From Comamonas sp. GB3 AK4-5 (GTDB taxonomy: Bacteria > Pseudomonadota > Gammaproteobacteria > Burkholderiales > Burkholderiaceae_C): a stretch of DNA of 64,000 bases. The position numbers were made by a program, and so were the translations under genes. The stretch is taken from contig NZ_CP166730.1 of the NCBI RefSeq assembly GCF_041320665.1, positions 4,588,001-4,652,000 of the forward strand. Reading direction: 5' to 3'. The notes under the pieces were generated by a model. That model saw only the letters and a list, made by a program, of their open reading frames with translations. It ran no database searches and was not told where the DNA came from. The first letter of the stretch is position 1. Each line of letters begins with the position of its first letter. This document shows positions 25,813 to 37,202 of the stretch, in pieces.

Positions 25813-26123
25813 GGCGGACTTCCTTTTTTTCTGGCGCTCGTATGCGCTTGGAGGCCAGTCTAGGAAGCCGCCGTTCTTCTGAGAACGAATAATTTTCGAC
25901 TTGCTTATGCAGCAATCATCTTTGCTCCGTCTCCCCTGCGAAGTGCAGGGAAAAGAAGGATTCAGAGTGTGAGCACACCATTGGCTTGCAGCAGAGCAAG
26001 CACCACGGACAGTTACGCGTTTTAAACACGGAAGCACAAGCCGCAGCCCGTCCGTGGAAGCATGCCAAGTTCGGCGCCAAGCGGTACGCCATCTTGCGCA
26101 CATCTACGGTCTCATCGCTTCCT
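25813..26123. promoter_or_regulatory. Divergent intergenic region between the sulfonate-type operon and vgrG
   Basis: Holds the promoter of the leftward dioxygenase operon and possibly that of vgrG. The AT-rich palindrome CGAATAATTTTCG (25886-25898) sits about 75 bases before the dioxygenase ATG and is the best candidate for a regulator site. An in-frame extension of vgrG back to 25986 is open but has no family resemblance and no ribosome site. Confidence 0.4.
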
Positions 26124-29100
26124 ATGCTTACTGCCTATTCCGCTGACCTTGCCAGCCTGCTCACCCCCGTCACCCTCAGCGCCGACGCCCGCCTGTACCG
26201 CGTGGAACTGGCTCCCGGCCGTTCAGATTCCACAGCAGCCCAAACCATGGTGCAAGCCCTGCAGCCCGAGGCCTGGATTGCACGCGAAGCGCTGAGCGAG
26301 ATCGGTGAGATACGTCTGCTGTGCCTGAGCTTAGAGGCCGATTTGGTGCTGGACGATCTGCTCGGCCAAGGCCTGCTGCTGCACACGGTCTGCGCGGACG
26401 GCAGCCTTTACACCCGCAGCGGCTTGGTGCGCCTGGCCGAGCGCCTGGATGCACAAGGCGGCCTGGCACGCTACCGTTTTACCCTCGCTCCCTGGCTGTG
26501 GCTGGCCACCCAGCAAGGGCGCAGCCAGATCTTTCAAGACCGGTCGCTGGCAGACATCATCGAGCAGCTCCTCGCGCCCTATGCGGCCCAAGGTGCGGTC
26601 TGGCGCTGCAGCAGCGATGCCAGCGCCCTGCTGCAGCAAATCCCTGCCCGCAGCTACTGCACCCAGTGGCGTGAGAGCGACTACGCCTTCCTGTCCCGTC
26701 TGCTGTCCGAAGAAGGCCTGGGCTGGCGCGTTCAACCTCAGCCCGAAGCCGCCTGGGGCCACGAGATCGTCATCTTTGCCGACAGTACCCAGGACAGCGC
26801 AACCCCGCAGAGCCAGGCCTCGCCCGCACGCTTTCACCGCCAGGATGCGCAAGAGACGGATGACGCCGTGCAGGCCCTGGCACGCCGCAGCCGCATGGGT
26901 GCCTCCAGCGTCAGCGTGGCCATCTGGAACCCCGATGCCCGCAGCCTGCACGAGGCCAGCACCCAGGTACGCACACCGGCGGCCCATGCACCACGGCTGG
27001 CATACGACCATTTGCTCGGCCAGGATGACCACAGCAAAGCCCTGGAAGGCAGCCGCGCGGTAGAGCGCAGCGCACAGCGTTTGATCGAAGGCATAGAAGC
27101 CCACAGCGATACATTTTTAGGCCACTCCAGCCTGCGCAGCGCCCACTACGGCACCCGGTTGACCGTGCAAGAGGCTCCCGCCCTGGGCCTGTCCTCGGAG
27201 TCCAGCAGTGCCGAAGTCGCCCTGCTGCTGGATGCCCTGGAGCAAGTCGGCTTCAACGATCTGCCCACGGGCAGTGTGCAAGCCATAGAGGCCAGCCTGG
27301 GCAGGCCTGAAGACCACCTCTGGTTCGATACGGCCCCTGCCGCCCCTGATATCCAAGCGTCCTCCCTTGGCGTCAGCGATCTCGCGCCTGTTTCCGTTTC
27401 CGAAACCCCAGCGGCAGACAGCAAGACCTGGGAGAGCCGCTTTTGGGAAGGCGATCAAGCACCTCTGGCGCCGGATTTCTCCGCTGTGCTGATCGCCTCC
27501 TTCACCACCACCCAAGGCGGCCACAAGCCCAGGCCCGAACCCACGCTGATCGCAGCCGCCCGTGCCCATGGCTATGCCAATCGCTTCCGGGCCAGCCAAG
27601 CCGCCCTGCCCTGGCGCCCGCCATTGCTCCAGCCGCAGCCCAGCGCACCCAGCAGCTTTATGGCCAACCGCCCCCAGGTTTTCGGGGTGCACAGCGCCAT
27701 CGTCGTAGGCCCCGATGGCAACCCCCAGGCCAATGGCGCCGACGAGATCTACACCAATGCCCGGGGCGATGTGCGCCTGCGTTTCCACTGGCAGGGCGAG
27801 CAGGTGCAGCAGCAAGACAGCAATCCCCGTCCCGACAACCGCAGCACCCGCTGGGTGCGCGTCGCGCAGCGCCAGGCCGGCCCCGGCCTGGGCTGGCAAT
27901 GGCTGCCACGCATAGGCCAGGAGGTCTTGGTCAAATTCACCGATGGCGACCCTGACCAGCCCATCGTCATCTCTGCCCTCTACAACGGCCAGGGTGCGGG
28001 TGGCATCACGCCCACACCCGGCGGTCAAGCCGCGGCGGACAACGACAACAGCCTGTTTGCCCAGGCCCATGACGGCATGGTCAGCGCCCAGCACAATCTG
28101 GCCGCAGGCCTGGGTGGCGGCCACGCCCCCGCATGGCATGCGGCCTCGCCCCAGCCCGAAGGCCACCGCAATGCCACGGCACTGTGGGGCTTCAAATCCA
28201 AAGAGTTGGGCGGCAGCGGTCACAACCAGCTGGTGTTTGACGACAGCGACCAACAGCTGCGTGTGCAGCTGGCCAGCAGCGCCCAGCACTCCCAGCTCAA
28301 TCTGGGCCATGTGATTCACCAGCAGGACAACTACCGCGGCGGCCTGCGCGGCCAGGGCTTTGAGCTGCGCACCGATGGCTATGCCGCAGTCCGGGGCGGC
28401 GCAGGCGTGCTGCTCACCACCTACCATGGCCCTGCCGGTAGCAAGCTCGAGCCCACGGCCGACTTTGCCCCCGGCATGGCCTTGCTCAAGCAACTCAGCA
28501 CGCTCTCAGAAGGGCTGGATCAAGCCGCCGCCACCCACCAAACCGTGCGCCTGCCCGGCCATGCGGGCAGCCACAAGGCCGCAGCCAGCAGCATGGACAG
28601 CGAACATGCCCCGCATGCCGCCATGCTGCGCACGGCCAGCACCCTGGTCAACGCCGACGCCACCGAGCAAGCCCTCAGCCAAGCCAGCGAGAAAGACCCC
28701 AGCACGGGCGACAAGCGCGTGCCCCACACCGGTGACGCTGTGATCGCCGCAGCCGCCCAAGACGGCTTGCTTGCCATTGCCGGCCAGCACATGCAACTGG
28801 TGGCGGGTGAAGACATCAGCCTGGCCGCAGGCGGTGCCATCAACCTGGCTTTGAATGCCCAGGCCAGACTGCACACAGGCCAGGCCATTGGGCTGGTGGC
28901 TGCAGCCGCCAAGGCAGACCATGACGGCACGGGCCTGAGCATCATCGCCGCCCAGGACGCCATCGATGTGCAGGCACAAAGCAGCACGCTGAAGGTTCAA
29001 GCCAAGGAGCAGCTAACGCTGCAAAGCGCCAATGCCGCCGTGGAAATAGCAGCCTCTCGCAAGCTGCGCATCGCCACGGCCCAGGGCGCGGCCATAGAGC

Positions 29101-29279
29101 TAGAGGGCGGCAGCATCACGTTTGAGGCACCGGGAACCATTACCTACAAAACGTCTATGCGCACGCTGCAGGGGCCGGTGCGGGGTGGGTATGCGCTGCC
29201 GCTTTTCCCTCAGAGTGTGTGCGTTGCCTGCTTGCTCAAGGCCGCCCAAAGCGGCTCGCCCTTTGCAATCCATCAATAA
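26124..29279 (+). CDS. vgrG: Type VI secretion spike protein VgrG
   Basis: 1051 residues from the ATG at 26124 (MLTAYSADLAS). The trimeric spike at the tip of the secreted Hcp tube. The gp27-like half spans about residues 1-450, with RSYCTQWRESDYAFLSRLL as the usual late landmark. A gp5-type OB fold follows around 519-640 (HSAIVVGPDG, RLRFHW, RWVRVAQ, GWQWLPRIGQEVLVKF, DPDQPIVISALYN), then a DUF2345 region and a long beta-helix needle (about 880-1020). It ends with CVACLLKAAQSG, a common VgrG tail. Residues 163-254 are the part duplicated at 32919-33195. Structural T6SS genes are absent from the window, so the sheath machinery must be elsewhere. Confidence 0.95.
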   Translation: MLTAYSADLASLLTPVTLSADARLYRVELAPGRSDSTAAQTMVQALQPEAWIAREALSEIGEIRLLCLSLEADLVLDDLLGQGLLLHTVCADGSLYTRSGLVRLAERLDAQGGLARYRFTLAPWLWLATQQGRSQIFQDRSLADIIEQLLAPYAAQGAVWRCSSDASALLQQIPARSYCTQWRESDYAFLSRLLSEEGLGWRVQPQPEAAWGHEIVIFADSTQDSATPQSQASPARFHRQDAQETDDAVQALARRSRMGASSVSVAIWNPDARSLHEASTQVRTPAAHAPRLAYDHLLGQDDHSKALEGSRAVERSAQRLIEGIEAHSDTFLGHSSLRSAHYGTRLTVQEAPALGLSSESSSAEVALLLDALEQVGFNDLPTGSVQAIEASLGRPEDHLWFDTAPAAPDIQASSLGVSDLAPVSVSETPAADSKTWESRFWEGDQAPLAPDFSAVLIASFTTTQGGHKPRPEPTLIAAARAHGYANRFRASQAALPWRPPLLQPQPSAPSSFMANRPQVFGVHSAIVVGPDGNPQANGADEIYTNARGDVRLRFHWQGEQVQQQDSNPRPDNRSTRWVRVAQRQAGPGLGWQWLPRIGQEVLVKFTDGDPDQPIVISALYNGQGAGGITPTPGGQAAADNDNSLFAQAHDGMVSAQHNLAAGLGGGHAPAWHAASPQPEGHRNATALWGFKSKELGGSGHNQLVFDDSDQQLRVQLASSAQHSQLNLGHVIHQQDNYRGGLRGQGFELRTDGYAAVRGGAGVLLTTYHGPAGSKLEPTADFAPGMALLKQLSTLSEGLDQAAATHQTVRLPGHAGSHKAAASSMDSEHAPHAAMLRTASTLVNADATEQALSQASEKDPSTGDKRVPHTGDAVIAAAAQDGLLAIAGQHMQLVAGEDISLAAGGAINLALNAQARLHTGQAIGLVAAAAKADHDGTGLSIIAAQDAIDVQAQSSTLKVQAKEQLTLQSANAAVEIAASRKLRIATAQGAAIELEGGSITFEAPGTITYKTSMRTLQGPVRGGYALPLFPQSVCVACLLKAAQSGSPFAIHQ

Positions 29280-29341
29280 ACCACCGGCAGAAAGCTTTGC
29301 TGTTCTTATTCGACCCCATTTCTCCTGCCAGCATCGAAGCG

Positions 29342-30211
29342 ATGGCCCAGGCCTTGCGAGCACCAGCCTCGTCCCACCAGTCTTGGCTACTGGTAGATGG
29401 TGCGCTGGTGGAGCCCCAGCATTTAAAGCCGGCGCTGCGCTTTCTGGGCTGGGCAAGCCAGCGGGCATTGGAGTTCACTCCGCTGGCTGCCTATGGTGAG
29501 CACGGCCTGCTGCTGGTGGAGCTTCCCCAAGAAGCCGAAAAATTGACTTCGAGCTTGCAGCGGCTGATAAGCACAGCCCCTGACGCTCCCGCCTGGAGCT
29601 GTTTTGCTGCCACGCAGCCGTTACCGGTACTGCAGCAATGCTTTGCCTACCTGGCCCAGGCACAACATGAGCAGCTCAAAGTGCACTGCCGGGTCGCAGA
29701 TACCCGAGTGCTCCCCGTGTTGCTGGCCCAGCTGTCTGACGCGCAGCGGCTGCGCATCACAACATCCATCACCCATTGGCACTGGTTTCACAGAGAAGAA
29801 GGGAGCCTGCAAACCTGGAAAGCGCCAAGCCCCATGCACGAGCCTGTGGACCCCCTCCCTCATCTGCAAATCAATGACTCGCAATTCACCGCCATGCTGG
29901 ATGCAGCCGAGCCGGACGGCATTTTTTTACAGCTACAAGAAGTGCTCCCCGCTCTGATGCCCAAGCAGCATCGCGGCCGCTTCTATTCAAGCTTGCTGCG
30001 TATTTTGCAAACAGCTACCCAGCTGCAGCTGCAAGGCAACCCCGACCGTTTGCAGTTTGTTGTGCTGTCCCTCGGTTTTGGCGAGCATTTTCACAAACAC
30101 CCGCAGCTCCAGAACACCTGGAAAGCCGTACAGCAAGGCCAGAGCTTTACCGCACTGAAAAATGCATGGAGCGATGTACTGTGGGATACCTTGGAGCAGG
30201 AAAAATCATGA
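29342..30211 (+). CDS. DUF4123 T6SS effector-loading adaptor
   Basis: 289 residues from the ATG at 29342; a TTG at 29297, 18 bases after the vgrG stop, is an alternative start. Proteins of this family (TEC/Tap) bind the VgrG tip and load one specific effector onto it. The fold-typical WLLVDGALVEP opening, the middle HCRVADTRVLPVLLAQLSDA and the following THWHW patch are visible. It is encoded between vgrG and the lipase, the position expected for the dedicated chaperone of that effector. The start of the next gene overlaps its stop (ATGA at 30208). Confidence 0.88.
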   Translation: MAQALRAPASSHQSWLLVDGALVEPQHLKPALRFLGWASQRALEFTPLAAYGEHGLLLVELPQEAEKLTSSLQRLISTAPDAPAWSCFAATQPLPVLQQCFAYLAQAQHEQLKVHCRVADTRVLPVLLAQLSDAQRLRITTSITHWHWFHREEGSLQTWKAPSPMHEPVDPLPHLQINDSQFTAMLDAAEPDGIFLQLQEVLPALMPKQHRGRFYSSLLRILQTATQLQLQGNPDRLQFVVLSLGFGEHFHKHPQLQNTWKAVQQGQSFTALKNAWSDVLWDTLEQEKS

Positions 30212-30729
30212 ATACTTTTAAATCTCTCAACCTGGCAACAGGTCACATCCATACCACGCGATTTTTATTTATTGCATTTTTTTCGCTGCTTCTTTCTGCC
30301 TGCAGTAGCCATCAAAAACCTGTAGCCCCAGCCCGCATACCTATTCAAATCACAGCTTACAACCATACACAAGATTATATTCATCAATATTATATTGATG
30401 GAAAATCAGGTGGAAATGTTCGTGCTTACGGAATCGATGGAATATTATGCTGTACTACCATCCCTGAAAAATGGCATGAAGGTCTCACCGCCACGGTTAA
30501 GTGGACTACGTCCAGTGGAATCCCAGGGGACCGCAGACCAGGAGCTGAAAAAGAGACTTGGCATGAGCAAAAAGTGGCTATTGAGCCATATACCAGACCT
30601 GTTGACTATATCGCCCCGCATTTTTTACCCAATGGAGAGGTACGTTTGATTGTTTCACCTCAACTTGCGGGAGGAAAGGGGTATCCAGGGCCAGATGAGC
30701 CTATAGCTCCTCCAGGATGGAAAAAATGA
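30208..30729 (+). CDS. DUF3304-type lipoprotein, possible effector immunity protein (copy 1)
   Basis: 173 residues. Lipoprotein signal with lipobox LSAC (Cys32) after a strongly hydrophobic helix. The mature part carries the DUF3304 landmarks AYNHTQDYIHQYYIDG, GILCCTTIPEKW and TVKWTT. It shares these with the protein at 34547. Translation is coupled to the DUF4123 adaptor by the ATGA overlap. Lipoproteins next to a phospholipase effector are a common immunity arrangement because the toxin acts at the periplasmic face of the membrane; that role is inference. Codon use is clearly more AT-rich than in vgrG. Confidence 0.8.
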   Translation: MNTFKSLNLATGHIHTTRFLFIAFFSLLLSACSSHQKPVAPARIPIQITAYNHTQDYIHQYYIDGKSGGNVRAYGIDGILCCTTIPEKWHEGLTATVKWTTSSGIPGDRRPGAEKETWHEQKVAIEPYTRPVDYIAPHFLPNGEVRLIVSPQLAGGKGYPGPDEPIAPPGWKK

Positions 30730-30759
30730 CTTCCATAAAAATATCTGTTGGAGCAACTT

Positions 30760-32880
30760 ATGAGTGAATTTACGACAGGCTGGTATGAGATTGGTTTTGA
30801 CAAGCAAACCCAGGAGCGTCGCCATCGTTTCTTTAAAAGCACCATTTTGGTATTGGCTGAATTTATTGAAAAGCCCAGCGGCCGTACCCTGGTGAGCTGG
30901 GTAGATGAAAAAGGCAGGTCAGACCAATGGTCTGCGAATTACCCCAAAGCTAAAAATACCACACCAGAGGCCTGGATTAGCACCACCAGCGGCAATCAGT
31001 GCCAATTCAAAACCCCGGAAGACAAATCACGCAAAGAAGTGGTGCTTTCCACTCGGGAGGCCAGCCAAAGAGCGGAAAAGGCCGATGCCGCGCAGGCTGA
31101 TGGCCTGAGCTGCGAAAAAGAAATCCATGTGGGTCTTTTTTTTGATGGCACCAATAACAATATGGACCGAGACCTGAATGATCTGAGTCATAGCAATGTA
31201 GTCAGCCTTTTCAGAGCACATAAAAATGATCGTTCCAACCATCTTAGATTTTACGCTGCAGGGGTAGGCACAGCTTTTCCAGAAGTTGACGAAGACAAAG
31301 AATCCGATAATGGAAAACGCTGGGGAACAGGGGGAGAGGCCCGTATCCACTGGGGTATAATTCAAATTTACAATGCCATCCACATATCTCATTTTCGGAA
31401 TCCATTAATCCCCTTCGATGAAGCAAAAAATCTTTGTATAAAATCCAAGCTACCCGGCGCCTGGTCTTCCAAAAGAGCCTCGGATATGGTCGACGTTTTT
31501 GCAGACATACAGCAGCGCCTTTGCAATGCCATTGCAGACCAGCGCCCCCGCATCACCAAAATCCATTTATCGGTTTTTGGTTTTTCACGCGGCGCCGCTC
31601 AAGCCCGAGCTTTCTGCCAATGGATTCAGCTGGTGGCCAAAGAGAAAAAAATAGGCTTTGCCACTTTAGAAATTAATTTTTTGGGTATTTTTGATACCGT
31701 AGCCTCTTCCGGCCTGCCTGCCAGCTCAGGCATAGCCAATGGTTTTCAGAATTGGGCGAATAAAACCATGGATATACGCGGCGTGCAACGCTGCGTACAC
31801 TATGTGGCGGCGCATGAAATCCGCCAGAACTTTCCCCTGTCTTCCGCTCGCATCAAGGGAAATGGCTACCCTGCAAACACCCAGGAATATGTGTACCCGG
31901 GCGCCCATTCCGATGTAGGGGGAGGCTATGCAGCCGGTAGCCAAGGCAAGGGAGTGGGAGGCCGCAGCAACCTGGTGTCCCAAGTCCCATTGATGGACAT
32001 GTATGCGCAAGCGCTGATTTCCGGCGTTCGCCTGGACTTCAAAGATGAGATGGCAGGGAAAATTTCAGCCGATTTTGAAATAGACCCAAAGCTGGACAAG
32101 GCTTTTAGCGATTATATTCAGTGGACAAAATTCAGTGAAAAACAAGATATTTCCCAAGGCGGTGCAGCCGTAGAAAATCGCTTGCGCAGCCAGATGGGGC
32201 TATACTGGAGCTGGCGGGCATCCAAGGCACAAGCATCGGAATTTGAAGCCATGCAAAGCTACCAAGCGGCCAATGCGCAAGACAGGCAAAACCTTGCAGA
32301 TGCAGAAACCGATTGGAAAGCAGATGTGCGCGCGGCCGAAAAAGCGGTGCAAAGAGCACAGTCGCAACCCAGTGCTTACGATTCCACACCTGCACCGCGC
32401 AAGCCTTCAGAGGTTCAGCAGCGCTTGTTGGCCGCTGTGGCCAAGGCCAATGATATTCCCAAAGCCGTGGATCAATTTCTTGACCAATACATCCATGATT
32501 CACACGCCGGCTTCTATATGCTGGGCCCTATTACCCAACAAGATACCGACGAGTTCATCGCCAAAGTCAAGGAAAAGAAAGAGGCCCACGATGCCTGGAT
32601 GGCGCGGCAGACCAAAATTGGCAATTTCTCCGAAAGCGGCTCATTCGAAGAAATCGATGAATATCGGTCACCCTACAAGCTCAATCAATTTGAAAAGCGA
32701 GTGATTGAGCAAGATGCCAAGCAGCCGGGCACCATGGCTTTGATGTCTGATGTCGATGCCCCGGAATTGAGAGAGAGCATGGGCATCATCATGGGAACGG
32801 GCGTCCGCATCTTTGCCTCCAGCACTCGGCGGGAATCTGACGGCCATGGGCGCTACCGCGAGGTGTTTGACTGGAGCTGA
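30760..32880 (+). CDS. T6SS lipase effector, Tle1 type (DUF2235)
   Basis: 706 residues from the ATG at 30760, which has GGAG 7 bases upstream. An alpha/beta-hydrolase of the Tle1 phospholipase family, toxic to rival cells from the periplasm. The catalytic triad is visible: nucleophile Ser in FGFSRGAAQAR (about residues 271-281), Asp in FLGIFDTVASS, and His in YPGAHSDVGGGY (about 378-389). The first strand LFFDGTNNN (about 126-134) is also family-typical. About 120 residues of unrecognised N-terminal region precede the fold and may be the adaptor-binding part; a Lys/Gln/Ala-rich helical stretch (about 490-560) interrupts the C-terminal half. Follows vgrG, adaptor and lipoprotein in one transcription unit. 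Confidence 0.9.
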   Translation: MSEFTTGWYEIGFDKQTQERRHRFFKSTILVLAEFIEKPSGRTLVSWVDEKGRSDQWSANYPKAKNTTPEAWISTTSGNQCQFKTPEDKSRKEVVLSTREASQRAEKADAAQADGLSCEKEIHVGLFFDGTNNNMDRDLNDLSHSNVVSLFRAHKNDRSNHLRFYAAGVGTAFPEVDEDKESDNGKRWGTGGEARIHWGIIQIYNAIHISHFRNPLIPFDEAKNLCIKSKLPGAWSSKRASDMVDVFADIQQRLCNAIADQRPRITKIHLSVFGFSRGAAQARAFCQWIQLVAKEKKIGFATLEINFLGIFDTVASSGLPASSGIANGFQNWANKTMDIRGVQRCVHYVAAHEIRQNFPLSSARIKGNGYPANTQEYVYPGAHSDVGGGYAAGSQGKGVGGRSNLVSQVPLMDMYAQALISGVRLDFKDEMAGKISADFEIDPKLDKAFSDYIQWTKFSEKQDISQGGAAVENRLRSQMGLYWSWRASKAQASEFEAMQSYQAANAQDRQNLADAETDWKADVRAAEKAVQRAQSQPSAYDSTPAPRKPSEVQQRLLAAVAKANDIPKAVDQFLDQYIHDSHAGFYMLGPITQQDTDEFIAKVKEKKEAHDAWMARQTKIGNFSESGSFEEIDEYRSPYKLNQFEKRVIEQDAKQPGTMALMSDVDAPELRESMGIIMGTGVRIFASSTRRESDGHGRYREVFDWS

Positions 32881-32918
32881 TGCAGCAGAGACTACAGTTT
32901 TGTGACGCAGCACGCTTG

Positions 32919-33316
32919 AGCAGCGATGCCAGCACCCTGCTGCAGCAAATCCCTGCCCGCAGCTACTGCACCCAGTGGCGTGAGAGCGACTACGCATTCC
33001 TGTCCCGCCTGCTGGCCGAAGAAGGCCTAGGCTGGCGCGTTCAACCCCAACCCGAAGCGGCCTGGGGCCACGAAATCGTCATCTTTGCCGACAGCAGCCA
33101 GGACAGCGCTGCACCGCAAAGCCAGGCCTCGCCCGCACGCTTTCACCGCCAGGCCGCGCAAGAGAGTGAAGACGCCGTGCAAGCCCTGGCACGCCAGAGC
33201 CCAGCGCCCTGGCGCACACGCCCCCCCATATGCAGCAGCTGGAGTACAACCATTTACTCGGCAGCCTGGAAAGCAAAGAGCTGATCACCTTCATAGCGCA
33301 CAACAGGAGCTCCTGA
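32919..33316 (+). pseudogene. vgrG remnant
   Basis: Bases 32919-33195 match 26610-26886 of the complete vgrG with no insertion or deletion over 277 bases and only scattered differences, mostly at third positions. The frame then breaks. A second, weaker match (text encoding EYNHLLGS) resembles vgrG around 27000-27020 in another frame, so at least one internal deletion has occurred. There is no OB fold, no needle and no start of the gp27 half. It cannot make a spike and is read as the scar of a recombination that exchanged what lies downstream of a vgrG. Confidence 0.85.
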
Positions 33317-33317
33317 A

Positions 33318-33801
33318 ATGGCTCACTACAAGCTTCAACCGGATGCTTCCCAGCCGGGCGCAAACACAGCCGATATTCCATTTCGCCGCCGAATGCTTTT
33401 AGCCACATTAGGAGCTTTATCTGCGGGACTTTCAGCTTGTCGTCCCTCTGAAGGGAGTTCCAATATTTGGAAAATATTTTCAATGAATGCAACAAAAAAA
33501 CAAGCTGAATTTGCATATTTTGATGTGACACTCATTAGCTATCTTGATTACGCAATATTTGATGTTTACATCAACAAAAAAGACATTGGCGTTGCCAGCG
33601 CTTTTGGTGGTGGGGGACTTATAACAGGCATCCCAATGAAGTTAGGAGAACAACATATTGAATGGTGCGATGCAGGAACCGGGGAAAATTTTCAAGCGAT
33701 CAAATCGCCCAATTTTATCCTCCACGCCCCCCAATCACCGCTATCTCGGTGTTCACATTTATCCCGATAACACAGTGGATTTGATCCCCGAAAAATTCTG
33801 A
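33318..33801 (+). pseudogene. Frameshifted lipoprotein gene, paralogue of the gene at 33919
   Basis: Starts at ATG 33318 with AGGAG upstream. Codes for a signal with twin Arg (PFRRRMLLATLG) and a lipobox LSAC (Cys41), then YFDVTLISYLDYAIFDVYIN and GGGLITGIPMKLG, aligning with YFSVNLLSYLERPIFDVLLN and NGGIITGIPVPLG of the next protein. At the C6 run 33727-33732 the frame shifts and the open frame stops at 33770. Removing one C restores HAPNHRYLGVHIYPDNTVDL and a stop at 33801, matching the paralogue. Either a real inactivation, a switchable tract, or a sequencing error. Confidence 0.8.
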
Positions 33802-33918
33802 CCGCGCACGCGCACAGAGAAAGGTGAGGCACTTTTCCAGCGATGGCAAAAAATCTAGCCAACTACTCAAAAATAAACCAACGATTAGCCTCTCTAAAGA
33901 CCTGCTCGTCCCACCGCT

Positions 33919-34437
33919 ATGTCGTTCACACCTACACGCCGTCATGCTCTCTTCGCAAGTCTAGGTTTGCTTGCAATCCATATAGCAGCTTGCCGCCCTG
34001 ATGAGAAAGAGCAAGCTATACATGGCCAATCCATGCCTCACATCCCCAAACCAGAAATCATCTATTTCAGCGTCAACCTTTTAAGCTATCTTGAACGTCC
34101 TATATTCGATGTTCTGCTGAACGGAAAATTCATAGGAGATTCTGCAGGCCAACTCCATAGAGGTAATGGAGGGATTATTACTGGAATTCCTGTTCCCCTT
34201 GGTCCGCAAACCGTGACTTGGCGATTAGATGGTCCTGAAGGTATGCCAGGCAATGGAGACACCACTCACTCCAGCAACACCCCTATACTTAATCGCCCTG
34301 ACAAAAAATTCACCTATCTTGGTGTTCATATTTACCCAGATAACACCGTGGAATTAATTCCAGAAAAATTTTGGCCCGAAAAAACGCCAAGAGGATTAGA
34401 AATTAATCGCCAATGGGAGATTTTGCATAACCAATGA
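33919..34437 (+). CDS. Small lipoprotein of unrecognised family, possible immunity protein
   Basis: 172 residues. The start TRRHALFASLGLLAIHIAAC combines a twin-Arg pattern with a lipobox ending at Cys25, suggesting a lipid-anchored protein that may use the Tat route. The mature part has three conserved blocks shared with the frameshifted gene upstream: FSVNLLSYLERPIFDV, NGGIITGIPVPLGPQTVTW and YLGVHIYPDNTVELIPEKF. I do not recognise the family. Its place in the tail of the vgrG-lipase unit, its duplication and its low GC suggest an effector-immunity role, which is inference. No good ribosome site is visible before 33919. Confidence 0.7.
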   Translation: MSFTPTRRHALFASLGLLAIHIAACRPDEKEQAIHGQSMPHIPKPEIIYFSVNLLSYLERPIFDVLLNGKFIGDSAGQLHRGNGGIITGIPVPLGPQTVTWRLDGPEGMPGNGDTTHSSNTPILNRPDKKFTYLGVHIYPDNTVELIPEKFWPEKTPRGLEINRQWEILHNQ

Positions 34438-34546
34438 ATAATCCCCAATTGACTAGGTTCACGCTTGGGAAAATTTGGTTCATTGAACCTCGTGGAAAGG
34501 TGCAGATTTTATTCAAATCTTCTAAATTATTTCTTAGGAGCAATAC

Positions 34547-35005
34547 ATGAAGAAAATAAAAAATTTGATTTACATCTCGATTTTTCTAATTTTCTTACCG
34601 GTCTTGACATCGTGTAAAGAGTCTTCCTATCCTGCAAATATTATTGGATATAACCATACCGACAAAAGTATAGGGGATTTTTTCGTTAATGGTTATGGAG
34701 GAGGATTTTTAGATGCTCATAAAGGCGGCGGAGTATTTGTGTGCTGCATTAGTATCCCGAAGAAATGGTCACCCGATCAAAAAGTCACTATCAAGTGGAC
34801 AAATGACCATGGAAAGAGTTTCCAAGAACGAACGATTCCCATCCCTGAGTACAAAGAATCAGGTCAATTTGATGTCCATTTTCTTTATAATGGGGAGATC
34901 AAGGTTTTTGTTACCCCCATGTCTCTATGGCACCCCGACTCTCCTCTCAAAGGACCTGAAGCAGAAATGACTCCAGGAGTTCCTCTTAGAAAAATAAAAA
35001 ATTAA
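34547..35005 (+). CDS. DUF3304-type lipoprotein (copy 2)
   Basis: 152 residues from an ATG with AGGAG 8 bases upstream. Lipoprotein signal with lipobox LTSC (Cys23). Carries the same blocks as the protein at 30208: GYNHTDKSIGDFFVNGYGGG, VFVCCISIPKKW and TIKWTN, so the two are paralogues about 4 kb apart. Strongly AT-rich and ending in Lys/Asn codons unlike the flanking genome. Last gene of the T6SS island; a bidirectional terminator follows. May be immunity for a lost or related lipase; not provable here. Confidence 0.82.
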   Translation: MKKIKNLIYISIFLIFLPVLTSCKESSYPANIIGYNHTDKSIGDFFVNGYGGGFLDAHKGGGVFVCCISIPKKWSPDQKVTIKWTNDHGKSFQERTIPIPEYKESGQFDVHFLYNGEIKVFVTPMSLWHPDSPLKGPEAEMTPGVPLRKIKN

Positions 35006-35063
35006 TCAATGGGATTTATAGCCTCGAATAATACTTCTCAGCAAATAATAAAAAACGTGTCAA

Positions 35064-35108: not shown

Positions 35109-37202
35109 TTAAAACTTCATATCCGCCCGCACCCACCAGGTACGCCCCGGCTCGTTGATGCGTGTATTTCCGGGGAAGCCAAAGCCGGAATTACCCACCA
35201 GGTTCAAGTGCTCTGCATAGGCCTTGTCGAACAGGTTGTCCACGCCCATCAGCAGCTTCCACTGGTGGTTCACGCGGTAGCTGGCGTTGAGCGACAGCAC
35301 GCCAAAACCGCTGCTTGCGCCCATGTCCTTGCCCACCACATTGCCCTGGTTCAGCGCATAGCGGTGCTGGGGCGCGACCAGGCGCCACAGCGCGCCTGCG
35401 GTCCAGGGGCCCTGGGCATAATAGTCCAGGCCCAGACGCAGCTCGGCCGGCGGGGTTTGGGGCAAGGGGCGGCCGTCGCTTCGGTTATCTCCCCAGGTGG
35501 TGGCCAGCGTGGCCTGTGCCGTCCACGCTGGGGTGAGCTTGTAGTTACCACCCAGCTCGAAGCCAGCCGTGCGTGCATCCACATTGCGCACGGCAGAGCC
35601 CATGCCCATGTAGTCGAACAGCATGTAGTCACGCACATAGCCCAGATAGCCCGAGGCCCAGGCCTGCCAGCCCTGGCCCTTCCATTGCGCGCCCACGTCC
35701 AGCTGGGTGGTTTTTTCGGGCTGCAGCGTGGTGAAGGCGTTGCCCTTGTTGGCCGTACTGTTGCCAGGCGAGATCAGCTCCCAGTAGTCCGGAAAGCGCT
35801 GCACATGGCCCAGGCCGGCGTAGACCGTGGTGCTTTGGGTGAGTTGCTGCTCCCAGCGCACAAAGCCGCTGGGCATGGCGTTTTTGCTGCGTTCGTTGTC
35901 GGCAGCAATGGGGCTGACGCCGCCGTAGCCGGTGGCATAGCGCCAGGCCTGGGCCTTATCCAGCCGCAGGCCGCCCACCCAGCGCGTCTGCGCACTGGCC
36001 TGCCAGCCCAGCTCGGCAAACCAGCCGAAGTTGGCGAACTTGGCATTGCGTTCCCAGTCCTTGTTGGCGTAGGAGTCTGCGGGCGTGCCCTTGCGCATGT
36101 CATGCGGGCTGTACTGGCCGTCAAAGCCTGTGACCAGCTGCCAGCCTGCGCCCGGCTCCAAGGTCGCGGCCACGCGGCCGCCGGTGGTGGTGCGACGCAC
36201 GCTGCTGGCCATGCCACCCGCCATCATGCCGGTGGTGGGCGGGGTGCGCAGCGTGAAGTTGTCCATCACATGGTCGGCCTTGTTGCTGTAGACCTGGGCC
36301 TCCAGCTTGGTCAGCCAGGGGGTGAGGTGTTTTTTCTCCGCACGCAGGCCCCAGCTGTCGCGGCGGAACTGGCTGCCATCCATGCCGCGGCCGCCATAGC
36401 GGGCCCAGCCATCGCCAGCGCCGGCGCTCAGCTCCAGCAAGGTATTGGCGTCGGGCGTCCAGCCCAGGGCCACATCGGTATTCCATTTGTCATAGGCCGA
36501 GGGCACGCGCTGGCCACGGCCGTCGCGGTAGTCCTGGCTGTGGGAATGGTTGGCCGTGGCACGCAGATAGACCTGGTTGTTGCCCACCTCCAGCGTGGCG
36601 GTCTGGTCGTTGCGGCCATGGCCGCCGCCCAGCAGGCTGGCCTCCAGCCTGGCACCGGGCTCGGTGAATTCGGGCGGCAGCCGGTCAAAACGCACCACGC
36701 CGGCCGAGGCGCCCGGGCCCCAGACCACGGTCTGCGGGCCTTTGACCACGGTGAGCTGGTCAAAGGTTTCGGGCGAGATATAGGAGCTGGGTGAATCCAT
36801 GCGCCCGGGGCAGGCCCCCTGCAGCTGGGTGCCATTGGTGAGCAGTGGCAGACGCGAGCCGAACTGGCCGCGAAACACCGGATCGCTGTTGGAGCCGCCG
36901 CTGCGAATGGCCGAGAAGCCGGGAATGGTCTTGAGGTAGTCGGCCGCATCGCTGGCCGGGATGGGCTGGCGCGGCTGCTTGGGGTCGGTCACCACCTGTA
37001 CGGGCGAATGGTCATGCACGGCGGTGACCACCACCTCTTGCAAGGTATCGCTGGCGGCGGCATCGGCCGTGCTGGCGGCTTGCGCTGCGACCGGCAGCAG
37101 CAGGCTGGCGGCACAGGCCAGGGCCATGGGGGAGAAAGCAAAAGGCAGGGGCGGCAGGGCGATATGGCCCGCGCGCGCAAAGGCGAGAAAGGGGTAAGAC
37201 AT
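35109..37202 (-). CDS. oprC: TonB-dependent copper receptor (OprC/NosA family)
   Basis: 697 residues from the ATG at 37202; a GTG 12 bases upstream is less likely. Signal peptide ends near AAQAA (about 43). A plug domain (about 50-180: DYLKTIPGFSAIRSGG, DPVFRGQFGSRLPLL) and a 22-strand barrel end in the C-terminal Phe typical of outer-membrane proteins. The copper ligands known for Pseudomonas OprC, Cys-x3-Met and His-x-Met, are present as C131/M135 (GACPGRMD) and H311/M313 (DHVMDN) with the same 4-176-2 spacing. Imports copper across the outer membrane. A DUF2946 gene, often found beside such receptors, lies just upstream. Confidence 0.95.
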   Translation of the reverse strand: MSYPFLAFARAGHIALPPLPFAFSPMALACAASLLLPVAAQAASTADAAASDTLQEVVVTAVHDHSPVQVVTDPKQPRQPIPASDAADYLKTIPGFSAIRSGGSNSDPVFRGQFGSRLPLLTNGTQLQGACPGRMDSPSSYISPETFDQLTVVKGPQTVVWGPGASAGVVRFDRLPPEFTEPGARLEASLLGGGHGRNDQTATLEVGNNQVYLRATANHSHSQDYRDGRGQRVPSAYDKWNTDVALGWTPDANTLLELSAGAGDGWARYGGRGMDGSQFRRDSWGLRAEKKHLTPWLTKLEAQVYSNKADHVMDNFTLRTPPTTGMMAGGMASSVRRTTTGGRVAATLEPGAGWQLVTGFDGQYSPHDMRKGTPADSYANKDWERNAKFANFGWFAELGWQASAQTRWVGGLRLDKAQAWRYATGYGGVSPIAADNERSKNAMPSGFVRWEQQLTQSTTVYAGLGHVQRFPDYWELISPGNSTANKGNAFTTLQPEKTTQLDVGAQWKGQGWQAWASGYLGYVRDYMLFDYMGMGSAVRNVDARTAGFELGGNYKLTPAWTAQATLATTWGDNRSDGRPLPQTPPAELRLGLDYYAQGPWTAGALWRLVAPQHRYALNQGNVVGKDMGASSGFGVLSLNASYRVNHQWKLLMGVDNLFDKAYAEHLNLVGNSGFGFPGNTRINEPGRTWWVRADMKF

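Follow-up and report, generated by a model that had tools for sequence, protein, structure and literature searches.

The 64,000-nucleotide stretch of the Comamonas sp. GB3 AK4-5 chromosome analysed here (the window, 4.588-4.652 Mb of a single-contig genome of 5.05 Mb) hosts a type VI secretion system (T6SS) island, in which genes encoding VgrG, a DUF4123 adaptor, a DUF3304 lipoprotein and a Tle1-type lipase are followed by a vgrG scar, two copies of an unnamed lipoprotein gene, the first of which is broken, and a second DUF3304 lipoprotein gene (Table 1). The unnamed family is provisionally called X, and its window members X1 and X2. A third lipoprotein family, found next to Tle1 genes elsewhere, is denominated F3. 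Fetched loci and stretches are denoted by L-numbers, genomes by G-numbers. In four modules X fills the immunity slot before Tle1, and the lipases encoded in these modules form a clade which does not include the lipase of the window.

It is in our judgement probable that the locus is an orphan vgrG island in which DUF3304 guards against Tle1, that leftover immunity genes lie behind the scar, and that X is cognate to a separate Tle1 clade. VgrG and the DUF4123 adaptor would load the Tle1 phospholipase, and the DUF3304 lipoprotein encoded in front of tle1 would protect the cell in the periplasm, by binding and neutralising the enzyme. X1, X2 and the second DUF3304 gene would be immunity genes of earlier modules, whose toxins have been replaced. 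X would provide cognate immunity to the separate Tle1 clade from within the DUF3304/Tli1 superfamily. Protection against non-self Tle1 could still be provided by X2 and by the second DUF3304 protein; X1 is in decay. Both the immunity role and the export route of X are putative, and are proposed from sequences and structural models.

Family X and the slot before Tle1

The order VgrG-DUF4123-X-Tle1 is found in L013, L014, L016 and L114, the last from the same genus as the window, with two, one, four and four X copies, respectively. If the nearest ATG or GTG is taken as the Tle1 start (other candidate starts are present in L014 and L114), Tle1 and the last X gene overlap, the Tle1 start codon beginning 10, 10, 10 and 7 nt ahead of where the X stop codon ends. 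In all four intact modules X and tle1 are neighbours within the effector operon. The translational overlap with tle1 and the position by the adaptor would also suit an accessory protein, helping X-type Tle1 in folding or secretion. This is very improbable, since DUF4123 already serves as the adaptor, and X features a lipoprotein signal and a predicted beta-sandwich in common with DUF3304 immunity proteins. Multiplication of the genes and their retention without an effector would also better suit immunity.

Lipoprotein genes neighbouring Tle1 were seen at 18 loci. They belong to DUF3304 at 12 loci, to X at four and to F3 at two, and no locus is mixed as far as in view; DUF4123 is in view at 11 of the 18, and contigs end near the lipoprotein in five (L072, L073, L074, L075, L085), the genes beyond being unseen. 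In L077 DUF3304 is located behind Tle1 rather than before it. The count does not include L070, in which the contig begins inside tle1; L078-L081, L083 and L086, which encode Tle1-like domains in fetched stretches with no VgrG or DUF4123 match; L087 and L088, which had no match with our Tle1 model; and L089, which has no Tle1.

Tle1 proteins from 17 of these loci (L129 was left out) have been compared in a tree. X-paired lipases form one clade (support 100/99), as do F3-paired lipases (100/100). The three lipoprotein labels require just two changes on the tree, the smallest number possible, which none of 200 shuffles reached; DUF3304-paired lipases alone need two. The window Tle1 groups with one DUF3304-paired Tle1 (92/91, not starred), outside the X-paired clade. 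Its identity with the four X-paired lipases is 26-28%, and with those paired with DUF3304 26-40%. More tentatively, with chances we put slightly below even, DUF3304, X and F3 may be three specificity classes within a single immunity superfamily, matched to their own Tle1 sets, such that the lipase sequence would predict its protector, and X2 and the second DUF3304 protein would be a working memory against Tle1 types no longer made. Because immunity family and Tle1 clade correspond, the determinants of specificity between lipase and immunity protein become directly testable, with three homologous classes found unmixed beside one lipase.

A long immunity array was found in the Acidovorax metagenome-assembled genome (L010:205-7076), which carries six DUF3304 genes, two X genes, two tle1 fragments, one vgrG fragment and a DUF4123 gene. 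The two tle1 fragments match by type. For the fragment behind DUF3304, a DUF3304-paired Tle1 gives 70.9 bits and the best X-paired one 30.0; for the fragment behind X, an X-paired Tle1 gives 64.3 bits and the best DUF3304-paired one 36.6.

X has been found in eight genomes. Matches were obtained in four of 299 genomes, four of 399, two of 53 of the genus, one of a class draw of 369 and four of a further 399; draws of different searches overlap. The first search provided G000, G144 and G150, the second G408, and that of the genus G1062. The class draw matched the genome of the window only, and the last draw gave no new genome; scoring in the 399, 369 and further 399 draws was confined to about 8-9 first-look candidates in each genome, and divergent X genes may therefore have been missed. 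A scan of named genomes, restricted to close relatives of one protein, identified five X loci in Acidovorax, Chitinimonas taiwanensis (two contigs, one identical to G408:C28), Ideonella and Caballeronia. Full-length Tle1 accompanies X in the window, L013, L014, L016 and L114, and a Tle1 fragment in L010, for a total of six of the eight genomes. The initial annotation had regarded a location of homologues mostly away from T6SS effectors as an argument against immunity. This is not what was found: VgrG sequences are present on the fetched X stretches of all eight genomes (eight of nine contigs, the exception being L011), and 10 of 12 DUF3304 places are near a Tle1-like gene. No X was detected in plasmids (tblastn, E 1e-3), nor in viral contigs in a search limited to two peptide patterns. 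The weak match in G115 (L017) is spurious, as no open reading frame (ORF) of at least 70 aa matched X or T6SS queries. Candidates from G604, G499 and G1168 (L118, L119, L129) were rejected as X, being DUF3304 genes beside Tle1.

Several observations weigh against the proposed reading. X is rare (eight genomes), and the clade match is consequently based on four intact X-Tle1 modules. In the tree, the branches of L119, L077, L071 and L118 were flagged by the program as long, and L119 and the X group are possibly joined falsely. X members can be assigned to subtypes A and B, and neither the placement of X1 with A (86/81) nor that of X2 with B (84/90) is starred; X1 has a long branch, and its placement is therefore unsure. 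The order in L010 (B, tle1 fragment, A) is the reverse of that of the window, and a search of the window at 33.2-35 kb gave no tle1 remnant. In G150 the contig stops after X. The fetched Chitinimonas contigs (L011, L012) showed no Tle1 in the vicinity of X, and adjacency to Tle1 is therefore not constant among the fetched stretches; the X copies of Chitinimonas (L012:576-7149, L011:78-3695) neighbour Tli4_C proteins. The effector is in this case a large protein with a Pesticin-like domain encoded behind VgrG, and the contigs end next to the X copies. As for DUF3304, rescue of cells by P. aeruginosa Tli1a was not achieved according to the consulted part of PMC13133936, and in the consulted part of PMC6691524 V. 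cholerae TliV1b is reported not to protect, and TliV1a to have no predicted export signal.

X as a divergent branch of the DUF3304 fold

None of 19 whole X proteins (the broken window copy and the fragment L012 5802-6062 were not counted) matched PF11745 or NF053804 at E up to 1, and only a few scattered, weak and unrelated Pfam or NCBIfam matches were obtained. X is thus an immunity subfamily, as we propose, that current models miss, and genes to which no family is assigned therefore become readable as likely Tle1 protectors. A relationship to DUF3304 emerges when alignments are compared. The mature parts of X and DUF3304 align by hhalign with a score of 73.4 (97.6% probability), vs a maximum of 25.1 in 199 column-shuffled controls and 17.9 in the reversed control. 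Probabilities ranged from 97.6 to 98.7% across runs, and the match to a single DUF3304 sequence was weak (10%), becoming strong once alignments were used. When the profile was enlarged, the DUF3304 model was matched by the majority of whole X members (1e-5 to 5e-13), those without a match at E 1e-3 being two L016 copies and the broken copy of the window.

Predicted structures agree with the profile comparison. The AlphaFold2 models of X2 (mean pLDDT 81.9) and of the second DUF3304 protein of the window (89.2) were obtained. Eight strands, located at residues 47-56, 62-67, 70-75, 86-93, 99-103, 115-117, 133-138 and 144-149 in X2, and at 27-36, 42-47, 50-55, 59-71, 79-85, 92-98, 107-112 and 118-123 in the DUF3304 model, are in the same order and have similar spacing; the C-terminal helix is longer in X. 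The same two PDB entries (PepT1) top the Foldseek lists of both models, weakly (E 0.01-0.09), and nothing was retrieved under E 0.001. By sequence search of PDB no match was obtained for X, and weak unrelated matches for DUF3304. Profile homology above 199 of 199 shuffles and the same predicted fold make X a member of the DUF3304/Tli1a superfamily. The proposal that the 33318 and 33919 genes represent an undescribed immunity type holds in part: on profile and model evidence X is a new, undescribed subfamily of a known immunity superfamily, a divergent branch of the DUF3304 fold and not an unrelated type. No description recognisable as X was met in the open literature searched by words, a limited approach for a family without a name, with sources available in part.

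F3 genes are located directly before Tle1 in L074:93-2993, where four copies are in tandem, and in L084:7448-8113. Two F3 proteins were scanned, and had no Pfam or NCBIfam match. F3 aligns to DUF3304 with hhalign probabilities of 98.4% and 96.9%, values lacking a shuffled control. X and F3 align with a probability of 80% with signal peptides and of 3.7% without them. By profile comparison, F3 links to X through DUF3304 only.

A twin-Arg ahead of the lipobox had been noted in the X genes of the window. It is present in both copies, but was counted in no more than 10 of 19 whole homologues, a count in which the start of some (e.g. L015, L012 6114) is cut by our start choice.

The island and the genes behind the scar

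Table 1. Coordinates of the island and its features in the window
Feature	Position	Strand	Evidence and remarks
T6SS island	25924..35060	.	blastn to relatives; exchangeable cassette about 29203-35060
VgrG (TssI) spike	26124..29279	+	Pfam Phage_GPD 4e-50, T6SS_Vgr, DUF2345; NCBIfam
DUF4123 (Tla1-like) adaptor	29219..30211	+	Pfam DUF4123 5e-12; ORF overlaps VgrG end, exact start not settled
DUF3304 lipoprotein, slot before Tle1	30208..30729	+	Pfam 1e-23; slot as in relatives
Tle1-type lipase effector, GFSRG, putative triad S276-D312-H383	30760..32880	+	Pfam T6SS_Tle1-like catalytic domain 4e-27; triad assigned by motif
vgrG scar (internal hub part)	32913..33201	+	nucleotide identity to intact vgrG
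X1, broken, nearest subtype A	33318..33770	+	downstream piece runs to about 33849
X2, intact lipoprotein, subtype B	33919..34437	+	lipobox IAAC with C25, twin-Arg ahead of lipobox
Second DUF3304 lipoprotein	34547..35005	+	Pfam 4e-23

The gene content listed in the initial annotation (VgrG, DUF4123, two DUF3304 genes, Tle1 with GFSRG, scar, paralogous pair) was recovered by Pfam and sequence comparison, as was the noted drop in guanine plus cytosine content, which is 40-53% per kb at 30-35 kb vs 63.7% in the whole window. Genes after VgrG range from 38 to 57%, and the vgrG scar is at 63%. The only match to the T6SS sheath (VipB) in the genome is at 2.12 Mb; being so distant, it makes the island an orphan vgrG island. 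The adaptor scores 49 bits against NCBIfam Tla1, under the cut-off of 200.

Effectors are exchanged at this chromosomal site. The two flanks can both be aligned in G1093 (L116), where homology stops on the left at 25923 and restarts on the right at 35113 (blastn), and no vgrG was found between the flanks by model search. In the close relative G1085 (L115), whose TonB flank protein is 92% identical, DNA homology extends through most of vgrG to 29202 and restarts at 35061; the interval (L115:7627-14773) carries a PLD-type effector and a Tli4_C immunity-like protein instead of Tle1. In G1055 (L117) the TonB side alone aligns, and no vgrG was found.

The product of the resident tle1 has a GxSxG nucleophile with putative Asp and His, is linked to VgrG and DUF4123, and is a predicted lipase effector. 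Its best PDB match is 4o5p (E 2e-54), an entry labelled 'Uncharacterized protein' which we take to be P. aeruginosa Tle1. The GFSRG, FDTVA and HSDVGGGY regions align in the two; the alignment covers query residues 93-489 only, and the C-terminal part diverges. All PF09994 matches in the genome fall within the resident tle1. The sole Tle1-like gene being outside the X-paired clade, the X genes of the window are most likely relics of a module whose effector was replaced.

The scar supports this origin. It adjoins the orphan genes, and shares 91% identity with 26604-26892 of the resident vgrG; a second genome has, at the corresponding site, a vgrG to which the scar is 93.6% identical across 281 bp. 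Past the scar, a lower VgrG similarity (41%, E 1e-4) extends to about 33313. Since the intact module of G1062 has the order A-A-A-B-Tle1, and a vgrG scar is present, the A-B pair of the window looks like the remainder of a similar module. Scar and relatives are what suggests a lost X-type effector. That the lipoprotein genes were kept after the loss of past effectors, as initially suggested, agrees with the Tle1 tree, the single Tle1-like gene and the fragments of L010.

Alternatively, X1, X2 and both DUF3304 proteins might all provide immunity to the resident Tle1 as redundant copies. X1, X2 and the second DUF3304 gene do lie within 2.2 kb downstream of tle1, and multiple copies are common (four X in L016 and L114, two DUF3304 in L075 and L129). 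However, the scar separates these genes from tle1, two families directly beside Tle1 were seen at none of the 18 loci, and the L010 fragments match by type. The resident Tle1 falls outside the X-paired clade, its low identity to X-paired lipases being partly shared by DUF3304-paired ones. We consider this alternative quite improbable.

It is also unlikely, though less markedly so, that all genes downstream of the scar are non-functional debris. X2 aligns to the X1 gene in two pieces that lie in different frames, with identities of 45% (99 aa) and 48% (61 aa), and the second piece holds an in-frame TGA. The paralogy reported earlier is thus correct, and the single frameshift is not, as X1 carries two lesions. 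These lesions and the reduction of a vgrG copy to a scar would fit debris, and one duplicated tli1 gene of P. aeruginosa PAO1 has been proposed to be a pseudogene (PMC13133936, in part). In contrast, X2 and the second DUF3304 gene are full-length, and retain lipobox cysteines and conserved residues. Leftover immunity genes remain the preferred reading.

DUF3304 lipoproteins and known systems

Both DUF3304 proteins of the window belong to PF11745, the 30208 protein scoring 83.8 bits and the 34547 protein 82.2 bits (gathering score 22). Against NF053804, the NCBIfam 'Tli1a family immunity protein', they score 81.5 and 103.8 bits, respectively, below the cut-off of 110. The nearest aligned relative of the 34547 protein is encoded in L010 (6654-7073; 53-54% identity). 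In 150 genomes drawn from the family, DUF3304 was found at 12 places in eight genomes, 10 of which within 5 kb of a PF09994 match; the rough chance of a random point falling within 6 kb of a T6SS-type Tle1 is 0.0003, if about 20 loci and a mean genome of 4.6 Mb are assumed. The two exceptions are G066:C57, a stretch with VgrG and a PLD effector, and G052:C70, a degenerate copy. By sequence and by its place in the slot, the 30208 lipoprotein is the likely cognate immunity protein of the resident Tle1.

The vgrG stretch L089:5832-11453 contains a DUF3304 gene, and its effector is a PLD-type protein, presumably Tle5-like, not Tle1. The reach of DUF3304 may extend beyond Tle1, or the L089 copy may be an orphan. 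L119:2387-4291 encodes a Tle1-like protein in a VgrG-DUF4123-DUF3304 neighbourhood, in which the catalytic Ser and His are replaced in the alignment by D and Q.

That DUF3304 proteins act as Tle1 immunity proteins is already published, in sources consulted in part (PMC13133936, PMC6691524). P. aeruginosa Tli1a is an outer-membrane lipoprotein, modelled as a beta-sandwich, which binds Tle1 (PMC13133936), and V. cholerae TliV1a neutralises the Tle1-family lipase TleV1 (PMC6691524). In Xanthomonadales DUF3304 genes are listed beside Tle1-like genes (PMC6653060, in part). The window DUF3304 genes are members of the same family (PF11745, NF053804), and the 30208 gene similarly adjoins tle1. X resembles Tli1a and TliV1a in adjoining tle1, in the predicted beta-sandwich with a VNG...VHFxPD core, and in being a putative lipoprotein as P. 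aeruginosa Tli1a. It differs in that it escapes the Pfam and NCBIfam models, has no CC pair, a feature of many DUF3304 proteins, and carries a distinctive loop, which in most copies reads GGQPHRG or FGGGG. A further C-terminal helix is predicted (157-169), and the Tle1 clade with which X pairs is a different one. DUF2931 is another immunity family for a V. cholerae Tle1 (PMC13133936, in part); not directly compared here, it was not among the Pfam matches of the 19 X and two scanned F3 proteins. Orphan immunity arrays, in which immunity genes are retained 3' after displacement of the effector, are documented in V. cholerae (PMC5361080, in part). The genes behind the scar resemble these arrays, but are hosted by a vgrG-Tle1 island of a Burkholderiales genome and include members of an unnamed, putative immunity subfamily.

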